From an uncultured Eubacteriales bacterium (GTDB lineage Bacteria; Bacillota; Clostridia; Christensenellales; Aristaeellaceae): DNA of 60,209 nucleotides. The translations under genes and the position numbers were made by a program. The DNA is taken from contig CADCHI010000025.1 of assembly GCA_902801165.1 (NCBI GenBank), forward strand, positions 1 through 60,209, in the 5' to 3' direction. Shown in pieces: positions 19,947-59,245 of the stretch (positions are counted from its first letter, which is position 1; every line of letters begins with the position of its first letter). Below the pieces are notes generated by a model. The model was not told the DNA's origin. It saw only the letters and a list, made by a program, of their open reading frames with translations, and did no database searches.

Positions 19947-19985
19947 GATTGTTTCCTTTCATTTCCAGCGCTTCAAGGGGCTGTA

Positions 19986-20089
19986 ACTTGGAATGAGGAA
20001 TTGGGAATTAGGAATTAGGAATGGATGTTTAAATCCCTTCGGGATTTCCTCCTTAATTCCTAATTCCTCATTTCTAATTCCTAATTCTT
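19986..20089. repeat. Large AATTC-rich inverted repeat
   Basis: (G)AATTAGGAATTAGGAAT units on the left (about 19989-20022) are mirrored by TAATTCCTAATTCCTC units on the right (about 20054-20089) around a perfect hairpin AAATCCC-TTC-GGGATTT (20031-20047). It lies directly behind the sporulation lipoprotein gene and may act as its terminator. Confidence 0.65.
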
Positions 20090-24794: not shown

Positions 24795-24884
24795 GCAAAA
24801 AACAAAAGATCCTTCGCTTCGCTCAGGATGACAGGAACACAGCCCGTCGTCATCCTGAGCGCAAGCGAAGGATCTTTCTTTTTT
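24795..24884. terminator. Bidirectional terminator made of two facing dispersed-repeat copies
   Basis: AGATCCTTCGCTTCGCTCAGGATGAC (24807-24832) faces its inverted copy at 24848-24875 with one extra CG. The right side runs into TTTCTTTTTT for the plus-strand transporter; the left side gives a U-rich tract for the minus-strand MATE gene. The 170-bp gap has no other content. Confidence 0.75.
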
Positions 24885-26866: not shown

Positions 26867-28177
26867 TCACTCCCGGCAGGCCACCACCAGCAGCGCGCCG
26901 TCCCGGACCTCGATCTGCGCCGCGTCCCCGGCGAACTCGTTGCTGACGCCCAGCGGGAAGGTATTGGCGAGGGTCCCGTCCTCCAGGGGGTACTTCGTTC
27001 CCCGGAGGGTGACGCCGCTGCAGTGGTCGCCGAGGGCGAACACGGACAGCTTCACCCGTCCCGGCCCGAGCACGTCCGCGGGCACCCGCAGCGCGCCATT
27101 CCGCACCGCCGCCGCCCAGGTCGCGCCGTCGCGCATCTGCGCCTTGGCCCGCCGCGCCGCGGCATAGTGCAGCGCCTGGAGGTTGGCCAGGGTGTGGTCC
27201 AGCCGGCCGCCGAAGCCGCCGACGATCAAAAAGTCCTCAAGGCCCATGGCCAGACCCCGCTTGAGGCACAGCATCGTGTCGGTGTCGTCCTTTTCCACGG
27301 GCACGCGCACGGTGGGAAGATCCCCGGGCTCGCCCGACGAATCAAAGTCGCCGATCACGCAGTCAGGCGCGACCCCCATCGACCGGGCCAGCTCCCACCC
27401 GCCGTCGGCGCAGAGCACATAGTCCCCGGGCAGCGGCGCATAGGCCTTTCGGACATCCCCCTCGCAATGGGCGGTGAAGATCACGCAGCGCCGGGCGTTG
27501 TCGGGAAAGGGATGATGGCGGCACATCTGGTCGAAGGCCTCGACAGCGCCGTCGGCCATGGCCCGCAGCTCAGCATGGTACGGCGCGGTGAGCGGGTCGA
27601 GCACCGCATAGGCTGCCATGCCCGCCGCCTTGGCCCCGGCGACGCCGTCCAGCGCGTCCTCGAACACAGCGCAGGCCGCCGGGTCCACCCCCAGCCGCCG
27701 AGCCGCCAGCCGATACAGCTCGCCTCCGCGCTTGTTCACATCCCCCACCTCGGCGGAAGTGCACACCGCGTCGAACAGCTCCAGCGCCCCTCCGCGCTCC
27801 AGCGCCGGTCGGAACAGCTCCGGCTTGTTCGAGGTGGCCACGGCCAGCTTGACCCCGGCCCGCTTCAAGAGCCGCAGGTAGTCCAACGCCCCGGGCTTCA
27901 TGGGCACGCGGGCGGCATATTCCTCCGCCGTCATGCGCATCCACTCGGCGATCACCTCGTCGCAGCTCTCGGACAGCCCGTAGCGCCGCCGCGTGTATTC
28001 CGCAGAGCCGCGAAAGCTCATCCCCTGCACGGCCCGGCTGTATTCCTCCTGGTCATAGGCAATGCCGCGCGCGCGGAAGAATGCGGCGTCCACCCGGTGC
28101 CAGACGTCCAGGCTGTCCAGCAGCGTGCCGTCCAGGTCGAACAGCGCCGCGCGGAAGGGTATGGCGTCACTGAGCAT
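26867..28177 (-). CDS. HAD phosphatase-thiamine pyrophosphokinase fusion
   Basis: 436 residues in two parts. Residues 1-215 are a HAD-superfamily hydrolase of the beta-phosphoglucomutase subgroup: FDLDGTLLDSL near 13, VATSNKP near 110, Lys within EVGDVNKRG and FEDALDGVAGAKAAGM near 165. Residues 225-436 are a thiamine pyrophosphokinase: CADGGWELA, CVIGDFDS, EKDDTDTMLCLKRGL, GGFGGRLDHTLANLQ and, near the end, GVSNEF. The second part makes thiamine diphosphate from thiamine. A natural reading is that the HAD part supplies thiamine by dephosphorylating thiamine monophosphate, an activity reported for other HAD proteins; this is inference. It overlaps the FAD oxidoreductase stop by 11 bp and has GGGGGAG as ribosome site. 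Confidence 0.9.
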   Translation of the reverse strand: MLSDAIPFRAALFDLDGTLLDSLDVWHRVDAAFFRARGIAYDQEEYSRAVQGMSFRGSAEYTRRRYGLSESCDEVIAEWMRMTAEEYAARVPMKPGALDYLRLLKRAGVKLAVATSNKPELFRPALERGGALELFDAVCTSAEVGDVNKRGGELYRLAARRLGVDPAACAVFEDALDGVAGAKAAGMAAYAVLDPLTAPYHAELRAMADGAVEAFDQMCRHHPFPDNARRCVIFTAHCEGDVRKAYAPLPGDYVLCADGGWELARSMGVAPDCVIGDFDSSGEPGDLPTVRVPVEKDDTDTMLCLKRGLAMGLEDFLIVGGFGGRLDHTLANLQALHYAAARRAKAQMRDGATWAAAVRNGALRVPADVLGPGRVKLSVFALGDHCSGVTLRGTKYPLEDGTLANTFPLGVSNEFAGDAAQIEVRDGALLVVACRE

Positions 28178-30008
28178 GGTCGTTCTCCCCCAATGATTTG
28201 ATGAGCATCTCCGCGCAGCGGAGGCCGTCCACGGCGGCGGACATGATGCCCCCGGCGTAGCCCGCCCCCTCGCCGCATGGGTAAAGGCCCCTTAAGTTGG
28301 ACAGGCAGTCGGCGTCCCGCTCGATGCGCACCGGGGAGGAGGACCTGGTTTCCACGCCGGTGAGCACGGCGTCGGGATGGGCGAAGCCCTTCAATTTCCG
28401 ATCCAGCAGCGGCAGCGCCTCCCGCATGGCGTCGGTGACGAAGCCCGGCAGGCAGGCGGTCAGGCTGCCCCACTTCACGCCGGGGCGATAGCTGGGGCGG
28501 ACCCCGCCGGGGTTCGCGCTGGGGCGGCCATTCATAAAGTCCCCCACCCTCTGGGCCGGCGCGCGGTAGTCGCCGCCCCCCGCGGCAAAGGCGGCCTGCT
28601 CCCACTTGCGCTGGAAGCGCACCCCTGCCAGCGGGTCGTCGCCGCCGAAGTCCTCCGGCAGCACGTTCACCAGCAGGGCGCTGTTGGCGTTCTCGCCGTC
28701 CCGGGCGAACAGGCTCATGCCGTTGACCACCACGCCGCCTTCCTCGCTGGCGGCGGCGACCACCTGGCCGCCGGGGCACATGCAGAAGGTATAGACGGAG
28801 CGCCCGCCGGGCAGGTGCACGGCCAGCTTATAGTCCGCGGCGCCCAGGGCGGGGTGTTCCGCCGAGGGGCCGTACTGGGCCCGGTTGATCATGCTCTGGC
28901 GGTGCTCGATGCGCGCGCCGATGGCGAAGGGCTTGCGGGACATGTTCGCGCCGGCGTTCCTGAGCATCTCGAAGGTATCCCGGGCGCTATGGCCCACGGC
29001 GAGTATGATCGCCGCCGTCGCCAGCTCATACGCGCCGTCGGGGCCCTCCAGCATCGCGCCGGTCACCGCGCCGTCCGCGATGCGGAGCCCGCTGAGCCGG
29101 GTCTTAAAGCGCACGTCGCCGCCCAGGGCGATGATCTCTTCCCTGATCGCGCGCACCATGCCCTTCAGGTGATCGGTGCCCACGTGGGGCTTGGCCTGCC
29201 ACAATATGGCCTCCGGCGCGCCGGCCCGGGCCATTTCCTCCAGCACCCTCCTACACCGGGGGTCCTTGATGCCGCTGTTCAATTTGCCGTCCGAGAAGGT
29301 GCCCGCGCCGCCCTCGCCGAACTGGACGTTGCTGGCCGGGTCGAAGGGGCCGCCGTTCCAGAACGCGGCCACGTCCTTCTCCCGCTCCTCGACGGGTTTG
29401 CCCCGCTCCACCACCACGGGCCGAAGTCCGGCCCGGGCGAGCATCAGCGCGGCGAACAGCCCCGCCGGGCCCATCCCCACCACCAGCGGGCAGGGCCCGC
29501 GGCCGTTTGCTGCCGCCTTTCTGGTACCGTTTTCCCGCGCCACTGATTCAAGCGCGGGAAAACTACCGGGGTCGGCAGGGCTGAGCCCGGAGGCAATTGC
29601 TGCCGCCTTTCTGATACCGTTTTCCCGCGCCGGGCTGAGCCCGGAGGCATCTGCTGCCGCCTTTCTATTACCGTTTTCCTGCGCCACTGATTCAAGCGCA
29701 GGAAAACTGCCCCGGGAGAGAAATACATTTGAATGTGTGCTACCGTTGCCGGGTTTTCCTGCGGCTCTTCCTTCCCCCGCCGGGAGCTCCTCGGCGTTCT
29801 TGGGCAGGCGCACGGGGCGGGCGGTCTCCACGTCCAGGGTCAGCGTGAAGTGCACGTCGCCCTTGTCCCGGGCGTCCACGGACTTGCGCGCCAACCGTGC
29901 CCACAGGATGTCCTGGGGCTTGATCTTCAGGGCCCGGGCTGCCACGGTCTCCAGCGGCAGCTGCCAGTCGTCCAGCCTCTGGCGAAGCTGGGAAATGCGT
30001 ATAAACAA
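28167..30008 (-). CDS. NAD(P)/FAD-dependent oxidoreductase with in-frame repeat insertion
   Basis: About 613 residues. The N-terminal domain (MFIRISQLRQRLDD, ARKSVDARDKGDVHFTLTL) is that of the conserved FAD-dependent proteins with a dinucleotide-binding VVGMGPAGLFAALMLARAG near residue 180, NVQFGEGGAGTFSDGKLNSG near 240, and SLRGLYPCGEGAGYAGGIMSAAVDG (FAD/NAD closing motif) near 585. TTG at 30008 is chosen because GAGAGGGA lies six bases upstream and the family normally begins at this point. Residues of about 98-172 are a repetitive insertion absent from the domain logic, encoded by 29509-29707. Its ribosome site lies in a stem (30009-30059). Cotranscribed with the HAD-TPK gene. Substrate unknown. 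Confidence 0.85.
   Translation of the reverse strand: MFIRISQLRQRLDDWQLPLETVAARALKIKPQDILWARLARKSVDARDKGDVHFTLTLDVETARPVRLPKNAEELPAGEGRAAGKPGNGSTHSNVFLSRGSFPALESVAQENGNRKAAADASGLSPARENGIRKAAAIASGLSPADPGSFPALESVARENGTRKAAANGRGPCPLVVGMGPAGLFAALMLARAGLRPVVVERGKPVEEREKDVAAFWNGGPFDPASNVQFGEGGAGTFSDGKLNSGIKDPRCRRVLEEMARAGAPEAILWQAKPHVGTDHLKGMVRAIREEIIALGGDVRFKTRLSGLRIADGAVTGAMLEGPDGAYELATAAIILAVGHSARDTFEMLRNAGANMSRKPFAIGARIEHRQSMINRAQYGPSAEHPALGAADYKLAVHLPGGRSVYTFCMCPGGQVVAAASEEGGVVVNGMSLFARDGENANSALLVNVLPEDFGGDDPLAGVRFQRKWEQAAFAAGGGDYRAPAQRVGDFMNGRPSANPGGVRPSYRPGVKWGSLTACLPGFVTDAMREALPLLDRKLKGFAHPDAVLTGVETRSSSPVRIERDADCLSNLRGLYPCGEGAGYAGGIMSAAVDGLRCAEMLIKSLGENDHAQ
29509..29707 (-). repeat. Palindromic element array inserted in frame in a coding gene
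   Basis: Three related units start with GCTGCCGCCTTTCT-(N)-TACCGTTTTCC on the plus strand. Two of them contain perfect 12-bp hairpins with the same 11-nt loop: GTTTTCCCGCGC/GCGCGGGAAAAC (29529-29563) and GTTTTCCTGCGC/GCGCAGGAAAAC (29673-29707). The two stems differ by a compensated pair. In protein the units read as repeats of GSFPALESVA(R/Q)ENG.RKAAA. The middle unit has lost one arm. Confidence 0.85.
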
Positions 30009-30059
30009 GGCGATTCCCTCTCTGACTGCGTATTCCTGCAATCATTTTAGGGAATCGCC
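30009..30059 (-). promoter_or_regulatory. Leader hairpin covering the Shine-Dalgarno of the FAD oxidoreductase gene
   Basis: Perfect 11-bp arms GGCGATTCCCT and AGGGAATCGCC enclose 29 nt. On the minus strand the 3' arm contains the AGGGA ribosome site and ends one base before the TTG start. Folding would hide the start; there is no U-run. Confidence 0.5.
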
Positions 30060-30068
30060 GCGATTCTG

Positions 30069-30866
30069 TCAAGCGCCGCCGCGTTGCGTCGGGCGGGTCC
30101 TCCATCCCTGGGTCCACGTGTCCAGCATCATGATCACTTCCCACATCAGGTTCGCCCCGTACTGGAGGGGGTCCGATCGGGCGGGCACCCGCACGATGTC
30201 CGTGAAGCCCGCCTCCCGGGCGAGCCGGACCGCCCGGCTCATGTGCCAGCCGCTGGTGACGATCGCCACGGGCAGGCCGGGGTCGATCATCCGCGCCGCG
30301 TTGGCGAAGTTCTGCCGGGTGTCGGCGGCCTCCGGCTCCAGCAGAATCCTTTCCTCCGGTAAGCCCCATTCGACGAGGAGCTCCCGCATCACCTCCGCCT
30401 CCGAGGCGGAACCGCCCACCGGGTTGCCTCCGGTGACGATCAGTTTCGCGCCGGGATGCTCCCAGGCGAAGCGTTCCGCGGCCCCGATCCTGAGGCGCAG
30501 GTCCCGGGTCGGCCGGCCGTTCTCCAGCGCCAGCCCCAGCACGATGGCGTTATCCGCGCTCCCTCTGTCCCGGATGAAGCCGCCCGCCGCGATGGAGACG
30601 GCGATGGCCAGCAGGGTCGCCGTCGCCGCCGCCACGGCGATCCTCGCCGCCCAGCCCAGCGTCCTCGTCCGGGGATCCGGGAGCCGTCCCACCAGGTCGA
30701 AGCGGACGTCCAGCGCGAACAACAGCAGCGCGCCGCAGAGCGCGAGCTCATACCGAAGCGCCTTCCGATAGATGTCGGCCTTCGCCACGGTGGCGATCCG
30801 GTGCGCCATGATGGCGACGATATACGCCGCAAAGGCCGCCGCCAGGGCGACGAGCGCACTTCCCAT
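30069..30866 (-). CDS. YdcF/DUF218 family membrane protein
   Basis: 265 residues: three hydrophobic segments in the first 95 residues (LVALAAAFAAYIVAIMAH; ELALCGALLLFALDV; IAVAAATATLLAIAVSIAAG), then a DUF218 domain with DNAIVLGLALENG, AKLIVTGGNPVGG near residue 147, ILLEPEAADTRQNFANAA and VAIVTSGWHMSRAVRLA near 205. Such proteins (YdcF, SanA, ElyC relatives) are linked to envelope or lipid-carrier metabolism. Start ATG follows GGAGGCAAGGACC. It sits between tex and the FAD oxidoreductase on one strand. Function unproven. Confidence 0.85.
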   Translation of the reverse strand: MGSALVALAAAFAAYIVAIMAHRIATVAKADIYRKALRYELALCGALLLFALDVRFDLVGRLPDPRTRTLGWAARIAVAAATATLLAIAVSIAAGGFIRDRGSADNAIVLGLALENGRPTRDLRLRIGAAERFAWEHPGAKLIVTGGNPVGGSASEAEVMRELLVEWGLPEERILLEPEAADTRQNFANAARMIDPGLPVAIVTSGWHMSRAVRLAREAGFTDIVRVPARSDPLQYGANLMWEVIMMLDTWTQGWRTRPTQRGGA

Positions 30867-30903: not shown

Positions 30904-33057
<2,154 letters not shown>

Positions 33058-33091
33058 GTCTTTTCCTCCTGCGGCACGGTGCCGCCCGGCC

Positions 33092-33121
33092 ATTATACCA
33101 CGCCGGCGGCGGATATGTCCA
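33092..33121 (-). promoter_or_regulatory. Promoter of tex
   Basis: On the minus strand TGGACA (33116-33121), 18 bp, TATAAT (33092-33097). Confidence 0.65.
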
Positions 33122-33154
33122 CAGGTGATCCAGGGGCGAATGTCAATCCCGTCA

Positions 33155-33183
33155 TTGCGCACGCTCGTACCGCATGGTATAAT
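33155..33183 (+). promoter_or_regulatory. Promoter of the Cof-type HAD gene
   Basis: TTGCGC (33155-33160), 17 bp, TATAAT (33178-33183). The leader is about 115 nt. Confidence 0.7.
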
Positions 33184-35731: not shown

Positions 35732-35806
35732 CACAGATCCTTCACTGCGTTCAGGATGACAACGAATCGCAATTCCTGTCTTCCTGAACGCAGCGAAGGA
35801 TCTGTA
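35732..35806. terminator. Inverted-repeat pair of the dispersed family, likely bidirectional terminator
   Basis: CAGATCCTTCACTGCGTTCAGGA faces TCCTGAACGCAGCGAAGGATCTG with 29 nt between, one A/G mismatch only. It divides a plus-strand MATE gene from a minus-strand kinase gene. The rest of 35587-35883 shows nothing else. Confidence 0.65.
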
Positions 35807-43854: not shown

Positions 43855-45459
43855 CTATCTGTAGCGCACCGCTTCTATCCGGTATTTCCCATCCTGCTTG
43901 AAGAGGACGCGGGTATCGACCTGCTCGATCGCCGGATCCATGGACTCCAGCTTGCCATCGAAGGAATCGATGATCAGCAGATCCTGGGGCCGGAGGTCCT
44001 CCCGCCTGGTCACGCTGGAGCGATAGCCGACCACCGTGACAAAGTGGCGACTGCCCCGATGGAGGATGGCTTCGACCATCAGCATCTGCGGCAGCCCTGC
44101 GCTGAGCAAGTCGTACAGCTGCGCCATCATGGTATTGGGGTTGCTATACAGCTCCTTCTTGTAGCTGAGCTTCCGGCTCGTCATGTATTTCCTCAGGGCC
44201 ACGGAGAGATCCACGTTCGTCACATTGTCCACCATGCAGTACACATAGTAGTTGGCAAAGCCGAGGCAGTAGCCGCTGTACTTGTCGGTTCCACCGGGGT
44301 GCGTGCAGATGCTGTCGCGGACCAGCTTCGCGCAGGTCATGGGATCGACGGCGGTATTGACGACCTTGAATTCCACGCCATTGTAGGAGGCGAGGTTCAT
44401 CGCGGGGGTCCTGGGCTGGCTGTTGGGGTCGATGACCCGAAGCTGCAGCACGGCGGACAGCTTGTTGGCCGTCTTCACGGTGATCTTCGCCGTACCGCTG
44501 GCGACCGCGGTCACGCAGCCGTTGGCATCCACCGTCGCCACCTTGGCCTTGCTGCTCTTCCACGTCAGCGTCGTCCGCGCCGTTTCCGGCGCCAGCACCG
44601 CGTCCAGCTGCACGCTCTCGCCCGCGATCAGCGCCAGCGAATTCCCCTGGGCGAGGCCGATGCCCGTCGGCTTGTAGGGATTGACCACCTTCACCGTGAT
44701 CTTCGCCTTTTTCTTGTTCGCGGTCGACACGGTGAGCTTTGCCTTGCCTTCCTTCAACCCGGTCACCACGCCGTTGCCGTCCACGGACGCCACCTTGGCC
44801 TTGTCGCTCTTCCACGTCAGCGTCGTCCGCGCCGTTTCCGGCGCCAGCGCCGCGTCCAGCTGCACCGAGTCGCCCAGGTTCAGCGTGATCGCCTTCCCCT
44901 GGCCGATGCGCACGCCCGTCGGCTCATACGGATCGATGATCTTGACGCGCAGCGTCCGCTTCTTGCCGCCGGCCGGCTTGAACTCGATCTTTGCCGTGCC
45001 CTTCGCCAGCGCCGTCACCAGCCCGTTTTCATCCACCCGCGCCAGCTTCGGGCTCTTCGACGTGAACCTGCCCGTCTCGCCCTCGTTCACCGCGATCTGC
45101 AGCGTCTCATCCACGTTCATCTGCGCCGTGGCACTCTTGCCCGTCAGCGCCACGGTCTGCACCGCAGCCGGCTGCTGGAGCTCCGGCGACGGCGCATCGC
45201 CGTCCGGCTCGTCCGCGGCCATCGGAGCCGCGGCGACGGCCTGCGCTTCCACCGGCTGTGCTTCCTCCGGCGCCGCGATGCTGGCCTCTGCTTCCGTCGA
45301 CTGCGCTTCCTCCGGCGCCGCCGGGGCCTCCTCGGCATACTCGCCGACGTATATCTCCTCGGCGTACAGGTCTATCTCGCCCAGCTCTTCGGCCACGCCC
45401 ACCGCAGACAGCAGCAGCGCCACCGCAGTGACCAGCGACAAACAACGCAAGCGCTTCAT
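43855..45459 (-). CDS. Secreted Big_2-domain protein with C-terminal C39-like cysteine peptidase fold
   Basis: 534 residues. Signal peptide at 1-23 (MKRLRCLSLVTAVALLLSAVG), an Ala/Glu/Pro linker to about 95, three bacterial Ig-like (Big_2) repeats to about 345, each with a LTWKS..AKVA.VD..G.VT core, then a globular domain. That domain has YCLGFANYYVYC (candidate nucleophile Cys), GSRHFVTVVGYR (candidate His) and LLIIDSFDG (candidate Asp) in the order of papain-like C39 peptidases. No sorting signal or membrane anchor follows. Extracellular peptidase or peptidase-like binding role is inferred. Start follows CGGAGGATTTTGA. Repeat 2 and 3 share long identical stretches, so recent duplication. 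Confidence 0.82.
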   Translation of the reverse strand: MKRLRCLSLVTAVALLLSAVGVAEELGEIDLYAEEIYVGEYAEEAPAAPEEAQSTEAEASIAAPEEAQPVEAQAVAAAPMAADEPDGDAPSPELQQPAAVQTVALTGKSATAQMNVDETLQIAVNEGETGRFTSKSPKLARVDENGLVTALAKGTAKIEFKPAGGKKRTLRVKIIDPYEPTGVRIGQGKAITLNLGDSVQLDAALAPETARTTLTWKSDKAKVASVDGNGVVTGLKEGKAKLTVSTANKKKAKITVKVVNPYKPTGIGLAQGNSLALIAGESVQLDAVLAPETARTTLTWKSSKAKVATVDANGCVTAVASGTAKITVKTANKLSAVLQLRVIDPNSQPRTPAMNLASYNGVEFKVVNTAVDPMTCAKLVRDSICTHPGGTDKYSGYCLGFANYYVYCMVDNVTNVDLSVALRKYMTSRKLSYKKELYSNPNTMMAQLYDLLSAGLPQMLMVEAILHRGSRHFVTVVGYRSSVTRREDLRPQDLLIIDSFDGKLESMDPAIEQVDTRVLFKQDGKYRIEAVRYR

Positions 45460-58703: not shown

Positions 58704-58923
58704 GTCGGCAGTGCCGACGGCCACCTGCTGCCGCCGGGGCAACGCCCCGGTCCCCATTTACTGCCGCGCCTCCTGGCGACGCCGGATCGGCCAACGAACG
58801 GCCTCCCGGCTGCGTCGGCAGTGCCGACGGCCATTTGCTGCCGCCGGGGCAAAGCCCCGGTCCCCATTTGCTGCCGCGCCTCCTGGCGACGCCGGATCGG
58901 CCAACGAACGGCCTCTCGGCTTC
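58704..58923. repeat. Two tandem copies of a 110-bp repeat
   Basis: GTCGGCAGTGCCGACGGCCA starts a unit at 58704 and again at 58814; the copies agree along the full 110 bp except for a handful of substitutions. Each unit holds small perfect hairpins (GTCGGCA-G-TGCCGAC; CCGGGGC-AAC/AAA-GCCCCGG). No gene is seen between 58704 and 59245. Confidence 0.85.
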
Positions 58924-59034
58924 GCATCCCCTGGAAAGGGCAGCAGTTCGGCAGAAGGTGTGGCCCGCAGCGACACATCGCCATCCCTACCCCGAACAAC
59001 GTCAAGTGTGACGTGGTGGCAATTCCCGGCGCAC

Positions 59035-59154
59035 AGATTCTTCGCTTCGCTCAGAATGACAGAGAAGCGGAAGCGCGCCATTCCGTGCGCGGAACTGTCT
59101 GTACGGATTGACAGCGGCATACCGCCAGGTCATCCTGAGCGAAGCGAAGGATCT
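59035..59154. repeat. Two facing copies of the GAAGCGAAGGAT dispersed repeat
   Basis: GATTCTTCGCTTCGCTCAGAATGAC at 59036-59060 faces GTCATCCTGAGCGAAGCGAAGGATC at 59129-59153. No U-runs follow, and the genes on both sides are on the same strand, so no terminator role here. Confidence 0.75.
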
Positions 59155-59245
59155 GCGCATCGGGTGTTGCGCAGTAGCGCATACCATCCGCAACCGCCAC
59201 CATCCCAACTCTCAACTCTAAACTCTCACTGAAGGTGAACCCACT

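Follow-up and report, generated by a model that had tools for sequence, protein, structure and literature searches.

A modular palindromic repeat, probably terminator-like, lies antisense in the linker of a flavoprotein gene from uncultured Clostridia

The window analyzed here comprises 60,209 nucleotides (positions 1 to 60,209) of contig CADCHI010000025.1 from an uncultured Eubacteriales bacterium. The minus strand harbors an open reading frame (ORF) of 624 aa at positions 28167-30041 which was identified as an FAD-dependent oxidoreductase by Pfam matches to PF21688 (FAD-depend_C, E 4.9e-83) and to DAO. No ATG is located near the conserved N-terminus (30003-30041 in the window) of the flavoprotein ORF in genomes G000 and G009, and a TTG codon is the likely start. 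The sole solved homologue found, 3nlc, matched weakly at residues 13-72 (8.2 bits) and strongly at residues 183-615; therefore, the repeats described below occupy the junction between domains. This interdomain linker segment (positions 29486-29707) contains three repeat units and is flanked by the conserved N-terminal and FAD domains. Genes were called by a codon-usage script of our own making, with four genes of the window as seeds for its training. One of them, the flavoprotein gene, was chosen by Pfam. Of the three others, the gene at 26867-28177 was named thiamine diphosphokinase after selection, the one at 30904-33162 matched solely an S1-domain model below the cut-off of this model, and no model matched the one at 30069-30866.

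The repeat units were read on the plus strand. Unit 1 starts with a triloop hairpin, termed X (GCGGGC AGG GCCCGC, 29486-29500), which was read from the sequence and overlaps the codons preceding the FAD-binding motif; its inner four pairs were recovered by folding of the stretch starting at 29487. A GCTGCCGC stretch follows at 29509-29516, and then hairpin A at 29529-29563, with a 12-bp stem formed by the arms GTTTTCCCGCGC (29529-29540) and GCGCGGGAAAAC (29552-29563) and with the 11-nt loop CACTGATTCAA. Unit 2 consists of an X-type hairpin (GGGC TGA GCCC, 29578-29588), a GCTGCCGC stretch (29599-29606) and a lone arm of hairpin A (29619-29630), the loop and the second arm being gone. Unit 3 comprises an X-type hairpin (29632-29642, from sequence and folding), a GCTGCCGC stretch (29653-29660) and hairpin A (29673-29707), in which the arms GTTTTCCTGCGC (29673-29684) and GCGCAGGAAAAC (29696-29707) enclose the same loop as in unit 1. 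The C-G pair at 29536-29556 in unit 1 corresponds to a T-A pair at 29680-29700 in unit 3. In one arm this compensated change leaves the amino acid unaltered (Pro, CCC/CCT), and in the other it exchanges Arg (CGG) and Gln (CAG). On the minus strand, the units are read in frame within the 624-aa ORF as FPALESVARENG and FPALESVAQENG. An earlier, sequence-only reading had described two units sharing a 12-bp hairpin and an 11-nt loop, a compensated C-G versus T-A change, a third unit without one arm, and an array open in frame in a flavoprotein gene; all of this was confirmed. The repeat is wider than first described, includes the triloop hairpin and the TGCTGCCGC stretch, and spans about 29486-29707. 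Two matches to the hairpin pattern (≤3 mismatches) were found in the window, a number equaled by none of 100 window shuffles. The same genome contained no further copy within 3 mismatches of this pattern, and copies with other stems were present.

BLAST of a 211-nt segment against the own genome yielded 68 matches at E ≤ 10. According to a covariance model, with the 150 best candidates scored per genome, the hairpin occurs 0-44 times per genome of the genus (387 summed), with copies in 25 of the 28; a 150-genome sample of the taxonomic family gave 12 finds, six of them from the own genus. For the own genome, 25 hairpins were collected from fetched loci and 23 were aligned after L020 and L023 had been dropped for a register shift. 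The loop was nearly fixed, and 11 of the 12 stem pairs varied on both sides; none of 500 shuffles reached this value and slid controls were lower. Paired percentages given in this study are inflated because copies were chosen partly by pairing. A dispersed palindromic family with pairing kept by compensated changes, as implied by the sequence-only reading, was borne out by copies elsewhere in the own genome and in relatives. Eroded copies occur as well, namely unit 2 of the window and a copy in the linker of G025.

Exact matches to the core were retrieved from a public genome collection. Among the 80 loci listed, 61 were titled as metagenome-assembled genomes (MAGs) of uncultured Clostridiales or Clostridia, in agreement with the predicted Clostridia-type host. 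The sources of these 61 include goat, sheep, and roe deer gut, and RUG in MAG names presumably stands for rumen. The remaining 19 of the 80, exact core matches in unrelated taxa, provided a chance control: in 19 of 19 the stem had 4-5 bp and the GCGGCAGC stretch was absent. Six loci were searched against Rfam and gave five matches up to E 1, all below the gathering threshold of the respective family. Phage and plasmid collections gave no match; three viral core matches had no long stem as judged by eye.

Placement was determined for 212 distinct copies. Twenty were located inside coding sequence, every one of them in the flavoprotein linker of one of 12 species, and two further copies (L087, L186) touched called ORFs at their edges. 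A downstream neighbor had been called for 183 intergenic copies; 180 of these pointed at its 3' end and three did not. These counts omit the 19 loci from unrelated taxa and one false copy in L150; the 212 copies overlap the 387 covariance-model matches but include some from outside the genus. The usual site of the repeat is behind gene 3' ends in a fixed orientation, and the copies in the flavoprotein gene are reversed; the assumption that the element is mainly protein-coding was thus not upheld.

Read in gene sense, the usual order is stop codon, triloop hairpin X, TGCTGCCGC, and hairpin A. X mostly has 5-7 bp; hairpin A mostly has 12-14 bp, the loop CACTGATTCAA and a weakly U-rich tail. The GCTGCCGC of the TGCTGCCGC stretch mostly lies 8-9 nt behind X, and roughly 10-15 nt separate this stretch from hairpin A. 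A set of 65 distinct 3' ends was defined by a stop codon ≤60 nt from hairpin A and the presence of GCTGCCGC, the lack of which led to omission of L077 and L111. X was present in 59 of these ends and had ≥5 bp in 55, as compared to 2 of 65 in a shuffled control. It carried a triloop in 56 and ended 8-9 nt before GCTGCCGC in 51 of the 65. The stop codon was found within X, overlapping X or ≤3 nt away in 54 of the 65, and in two X was wholly inside the coding sequence. At L092, L099, and other loci, X can lie wholly or partly within the last codons of the gene, with the other arm matching them. Furthermore, part of the loci carry tandem X-TGCTGCCGC units ahead of hairpin A, and in folds GCTGCCGC may itself pair with an upstream GGCA. 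The mean proportion of T at tail positions 2-9 was about 0.41 behind 189 intergenic copies (190 if the second real copy in L150, omitted from tail and tag counts, is included) as compared to 0.18 behind the 20 flavoprotein copies.

Relatives of the module were also found in the window at 58704-58921 on the plus strand, where two 110-bp tandem units carry X hairpins and the TGCTGCCGC stretch (with GCTGCCGC) and end in the loop TCGGCCAACGAACGGCCT. This loop had 15 matches in the genome (≤3 mismatches) versus 2 in a reversed control; 11 of the 15 had the TGCTGCCGC stretch upstream. At 58704-58921 and at other places in the genome, TCGGCCAACGAACGGCCT represents a second class of loop behind the same head module.

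Orthologous 3' ends were compared for the genes encoding RNase Y and NADP-specific glutamate dehydrogenase (GDH), both named by NCBIfam. By eye, 12 of 23 readable RNase Y ends contained the loop-A module, two a partial module, and nine another single hairpin; the 21 readable GDH ends comprised seven with the module, three with a partial one, and eleven with another single hairpin. The module occupies positions at which other species carry different hairpins of ordinary appearance. An empty site with clean ends was not encountered; the module appears swapped for another hairpin, not inserted beside it. The RNase Y 3' ends of 11 species (12 before G002 was omitted for an extra module) were aligned over two helices. 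All 209 cells were paired, and 15 of 19 pairs varied on both sides, which none of 500 shuffles matched; the number of pair types was not above that of shuffles (127/500). Hairpin A passed a strict U-tract rule in 9 of 11 RNase Y ends scored as bearing the module and in 3 of 7 such GDH ends, and a fourth GDH end passed through another structure. The rule also accepted 3 of 9 RNase Y and 9 of 11 GDH ends called plain; the stop codon was not located at one RNase Y (G013) and one GDH locus (G022). The rule therefore gives no more than rough support.

The linker of the flavoprotein was readable in 20 genomes: 12 contained intact hairpins, two (G017, G008) a different palindrome, and six neither intact form. 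Linker length, measured in 18 genomes, varied between 29 and 134 aa. Orthologues exist with and without the insert, as had been anticipated, and the segment is no uniformly conserved normal linker. The 12 species carry 20 intact copies, all antisense to the usual orientation of the family; these are not 20 independent events. Two reading frames, not one favored frame, are used, one giving ALESVAR (11 copies) and the other RLNQWR (nine copies), and the third would encounter a stop codon. The stem of the RLNQWR type, TTCTTCGCGC, occurs in nine flavoprotein copies and was absent from all 189 intergenic copies. This confinement to the flavoprotein suggests that the insertions are old and have been inherited. 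A FAD-domain tree of 20 species was poorly resolved; on it the ALESVAR and RLNQWR labels need two changes each, and the well-supported branches force one change for ALESVAR and two for RLNQWR. In the flavoprotein copies 240 of 240 cells were paired, the copies having been preselected by pairing. Changes on both sides affected 6 of 12 pairs, a value that 1 of 500 shuffles reached; pair types were not more numerous than in shuffles (368/500).

The different palindrome in the linker of G017 and G008 is of the RAYT type and lies in frame; its core was found near 16 of the 30 Y1 transposase loci scanned. The same palindrome recurs upstream of the flavoprotein gene (L049, L050). Between G017 and G008 both arms of the stem differ at both sites (GAGATA versus GGAATA), as if replaced in concert.

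We consider it probable that the segment in the window is a cluster of three copies, one of them broken, of a modular, terminator-like palindromic repeat which lies antisense in the flavoprotein gene. This reading is based on the modular build, the covariation of stems, the placement on stop codons and the finding that orthologous 3' ends may have or lack the module. As far as can be judged from sequence, the module at the 3' ends of ordinary genes most likely acts as a terminator or as an mRNA 3'-end structure. The flavoprotein copies lie reversed in the linker between the N-terminal and FAD domains. Because the terminator strand is antisense there, the gene could be transcribed and translated through the repeats in either open frame, and the reversal would be what makes these copies harmless. 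The linker itself is presumably permissive, as two or more unrelated palindromes have come to lie in it; two frames and a stem type found only in the flavoprotein suggest at least two gains in the linker, kept through speciation. Complementarity of the arms may be maintained either by selection on the fold or by repair of one arm with the other as template.

Several other origins of the segment were considered. That it is a product of chance or an ordinary repetitive linker, unrelated to any dispersed family, is next to impossible: the freely varying linker length would fit, but the family is genus-wide with covarying stems, and the chance matches in unrelated taxa all have short stems and no GCGGCAGC. 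Rickettsia palindromic elements (RPEs), of which 44 are reported in unrelated genes of R. conorii (PMC10969869, PMC3733652), share with the present repeat that a palindrome is found in frame in a protein, and a CGTC tag at one end is described for them (PMC3733652). A protein-coding element of this kind, mobile, adapted to translation, and scattered through many genes, would account for copies which are in frame, located in a linker, and recurrent in 12 species. However, a single gene was hit among the 212 copies examined, and nearly all assessable intergenic copies (180/183) face gene 3' ends. Unlike RPEs, the repeat enters one gene among the copies examined, most of which are at gene 3' ends. 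Insertion into many genes was not observed among them. Of 189 intergenic copies, 2 had CGTC and 54 had CGTT in the first nucleotides behind hairpin A, the only end counted. The analogy to Rickettsia, drawn in the sequence-only reading, therefore holds for the in-frame presence and fails for the spread through many genes, the 20 coding copies of 212 all being in one gene; as an explanation such an element is very unlikely.

Mobilization as a REP-like element by a Y1 transposase of the host (RAYT or IS200) also appears unlikely. REPs and BIMEs are short palindromes forming arrays, mostly downstream of coding regions; some lie within genes, at sites that roughly coincide between relatives, as in recB of two Xanthomonas (PMC3733652). 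The present repeat resembles them in its small size, its palindromic arrays and its mostly 3'-end sites behind genes. Y1 genes were detected in 16 of 28 genomes, and the palindrome that entered the same linker in G017 and G008 has the Y1-associated core mentioned above. Against this, G005, G013, and G020 hold 27, 27, and 33 copies with no Y1 match at E 1e-6, and G017 and G008 hold 9 and 7 Y1 matches with zero copies. A link is not supported: Y1 transposases do not track the repeat (Spearman -0.15, p 0.45), and its TGCTGCCGC stretch and loop were absent from all 30 Y1 loci scanned, though a transposase since lost or outside the sample may have been involved. Unlike RAYT-REPs, the repeat has a fixed orientation to the gene, no link to host Y1 genes and no conserved GTAG tag, which was found on the linker side in 5 of the 23 aligned own-genome copies and in 1 of 189 intergenic tails. 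A fourth explanation concerns the arms only. They may match by arm-to-arm correction of imperfect palindromes at replication, without selection, so that a compensated change is one mutational event. We regard this as a real possibility, though less likely than not. It is favored by stems that seldom contain a mismatch, even in the flavoprotein, where no selection for termination is expected, and by the RAYT-type palindrome of this linker, both arms of which are different in the sister species G017 and G008. Such correction leaves the conserved loop, the TGCTGCCGC stretch and the placement on stop codons unexplained.

The reading as a modular, terminator-like repeat was also compared, by description, with two pneumococcal repeats. 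BOX elements of Streptococcus pneumoniae are modular interspersed repeats with an inner module in variable number, and 36 of 58 overlapping coding sequences are touched at the extreme 3' end, where the repeat supplies the stop codon (PMC3049150). A modular build with a repeated inner module is present here as well, in part of the loci. What sets the present repeat apart from BOX is a first hairpin whose position at or next to the stop codon is fixed, together with stem covariation around loops that do not vary and the in-frame copies within one gene. SPRITE is a dispersed pneumococcal repeat resembling a rho-independent terminator, with a long duplex and a U-rich tail (PMC3049150), and is similar to the present repeat in all these respects; a stop-codon hairpin and a conserved stretch, present here, are not mentioned for it in the accessible part of that description. 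With intrinsic terminators the module shares the position behind orthologous genes, a strong stem and a T-enriched tail; unlike ordinary ones, it has a conserved 11-nt loop, the TGCTGCCGC stretch, an extra stop-codon hairpin and tandem arrays.

Mismatches in the stems were examined with regard to what keeps the arms matched. Among 1512 interior pairs of intergenic copies, 8 were G.U in element sense, 17 were G.U in antisense and 11 were other mismatches, with a possible bias of these wobble counts since the covariance scan was run on the antisense strand. In total, 36 of the 1512 intergenic and 9 of 182 flavoprotein pairs were not Watson-Crick. The intergenic wobble pairs (8 sense versus 17 antisense) gave no sign of selection on the sense RNA. 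As mismatches are rare and G.U pairs show no preference for the sense strand, repair-like correction remains beside selection. An apparent lean of wobble pairs to the flavoprotein mRNA (5/5) was dropped, because a strand-symmetric filter gave the same lean in intergenic copies.

A more far-reaching and rather doubtful proposal is that the module might be a dedicated 3'-end signal read through its structure. It would consist of the stop-codon hairpin, the near-invariant UGCUGCCGC and interchangeable final stem-loops, of which at least two loop classes, CACUGAUUCAA and UCGGCCAACGAACGGCCU, would each have a trans-acting partner, and it would spread by replacing terminators. The antisense flavoprotein copies might then be kept for a benefit derived either from their fold or from an mRNA whose sequence complements the loops found at dozens of 3' ends. 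The usual place of the repeat at 3' ends and its translated place allow a copy-by-copy comparison in about 20 related species. This makes testable whether selection or repair keeps the arms of a palindrome matched, and in what way a repeat becomes anchored on stop codons and replaces terminators.

Additionally, other repeats were observed in the window. Dispersed direct and inverted copies of AGATCCTTCGCTTCGCTCAGGATGAC are located at 24807-24834, 35735-35805, and 59019-59170. A palindromic array of GGAATTA/TAATTCC units is present at 19985-20087, and a 252-bp tandem repeat with 2.2 copies and 75% matches extends from 44506 to 45048.
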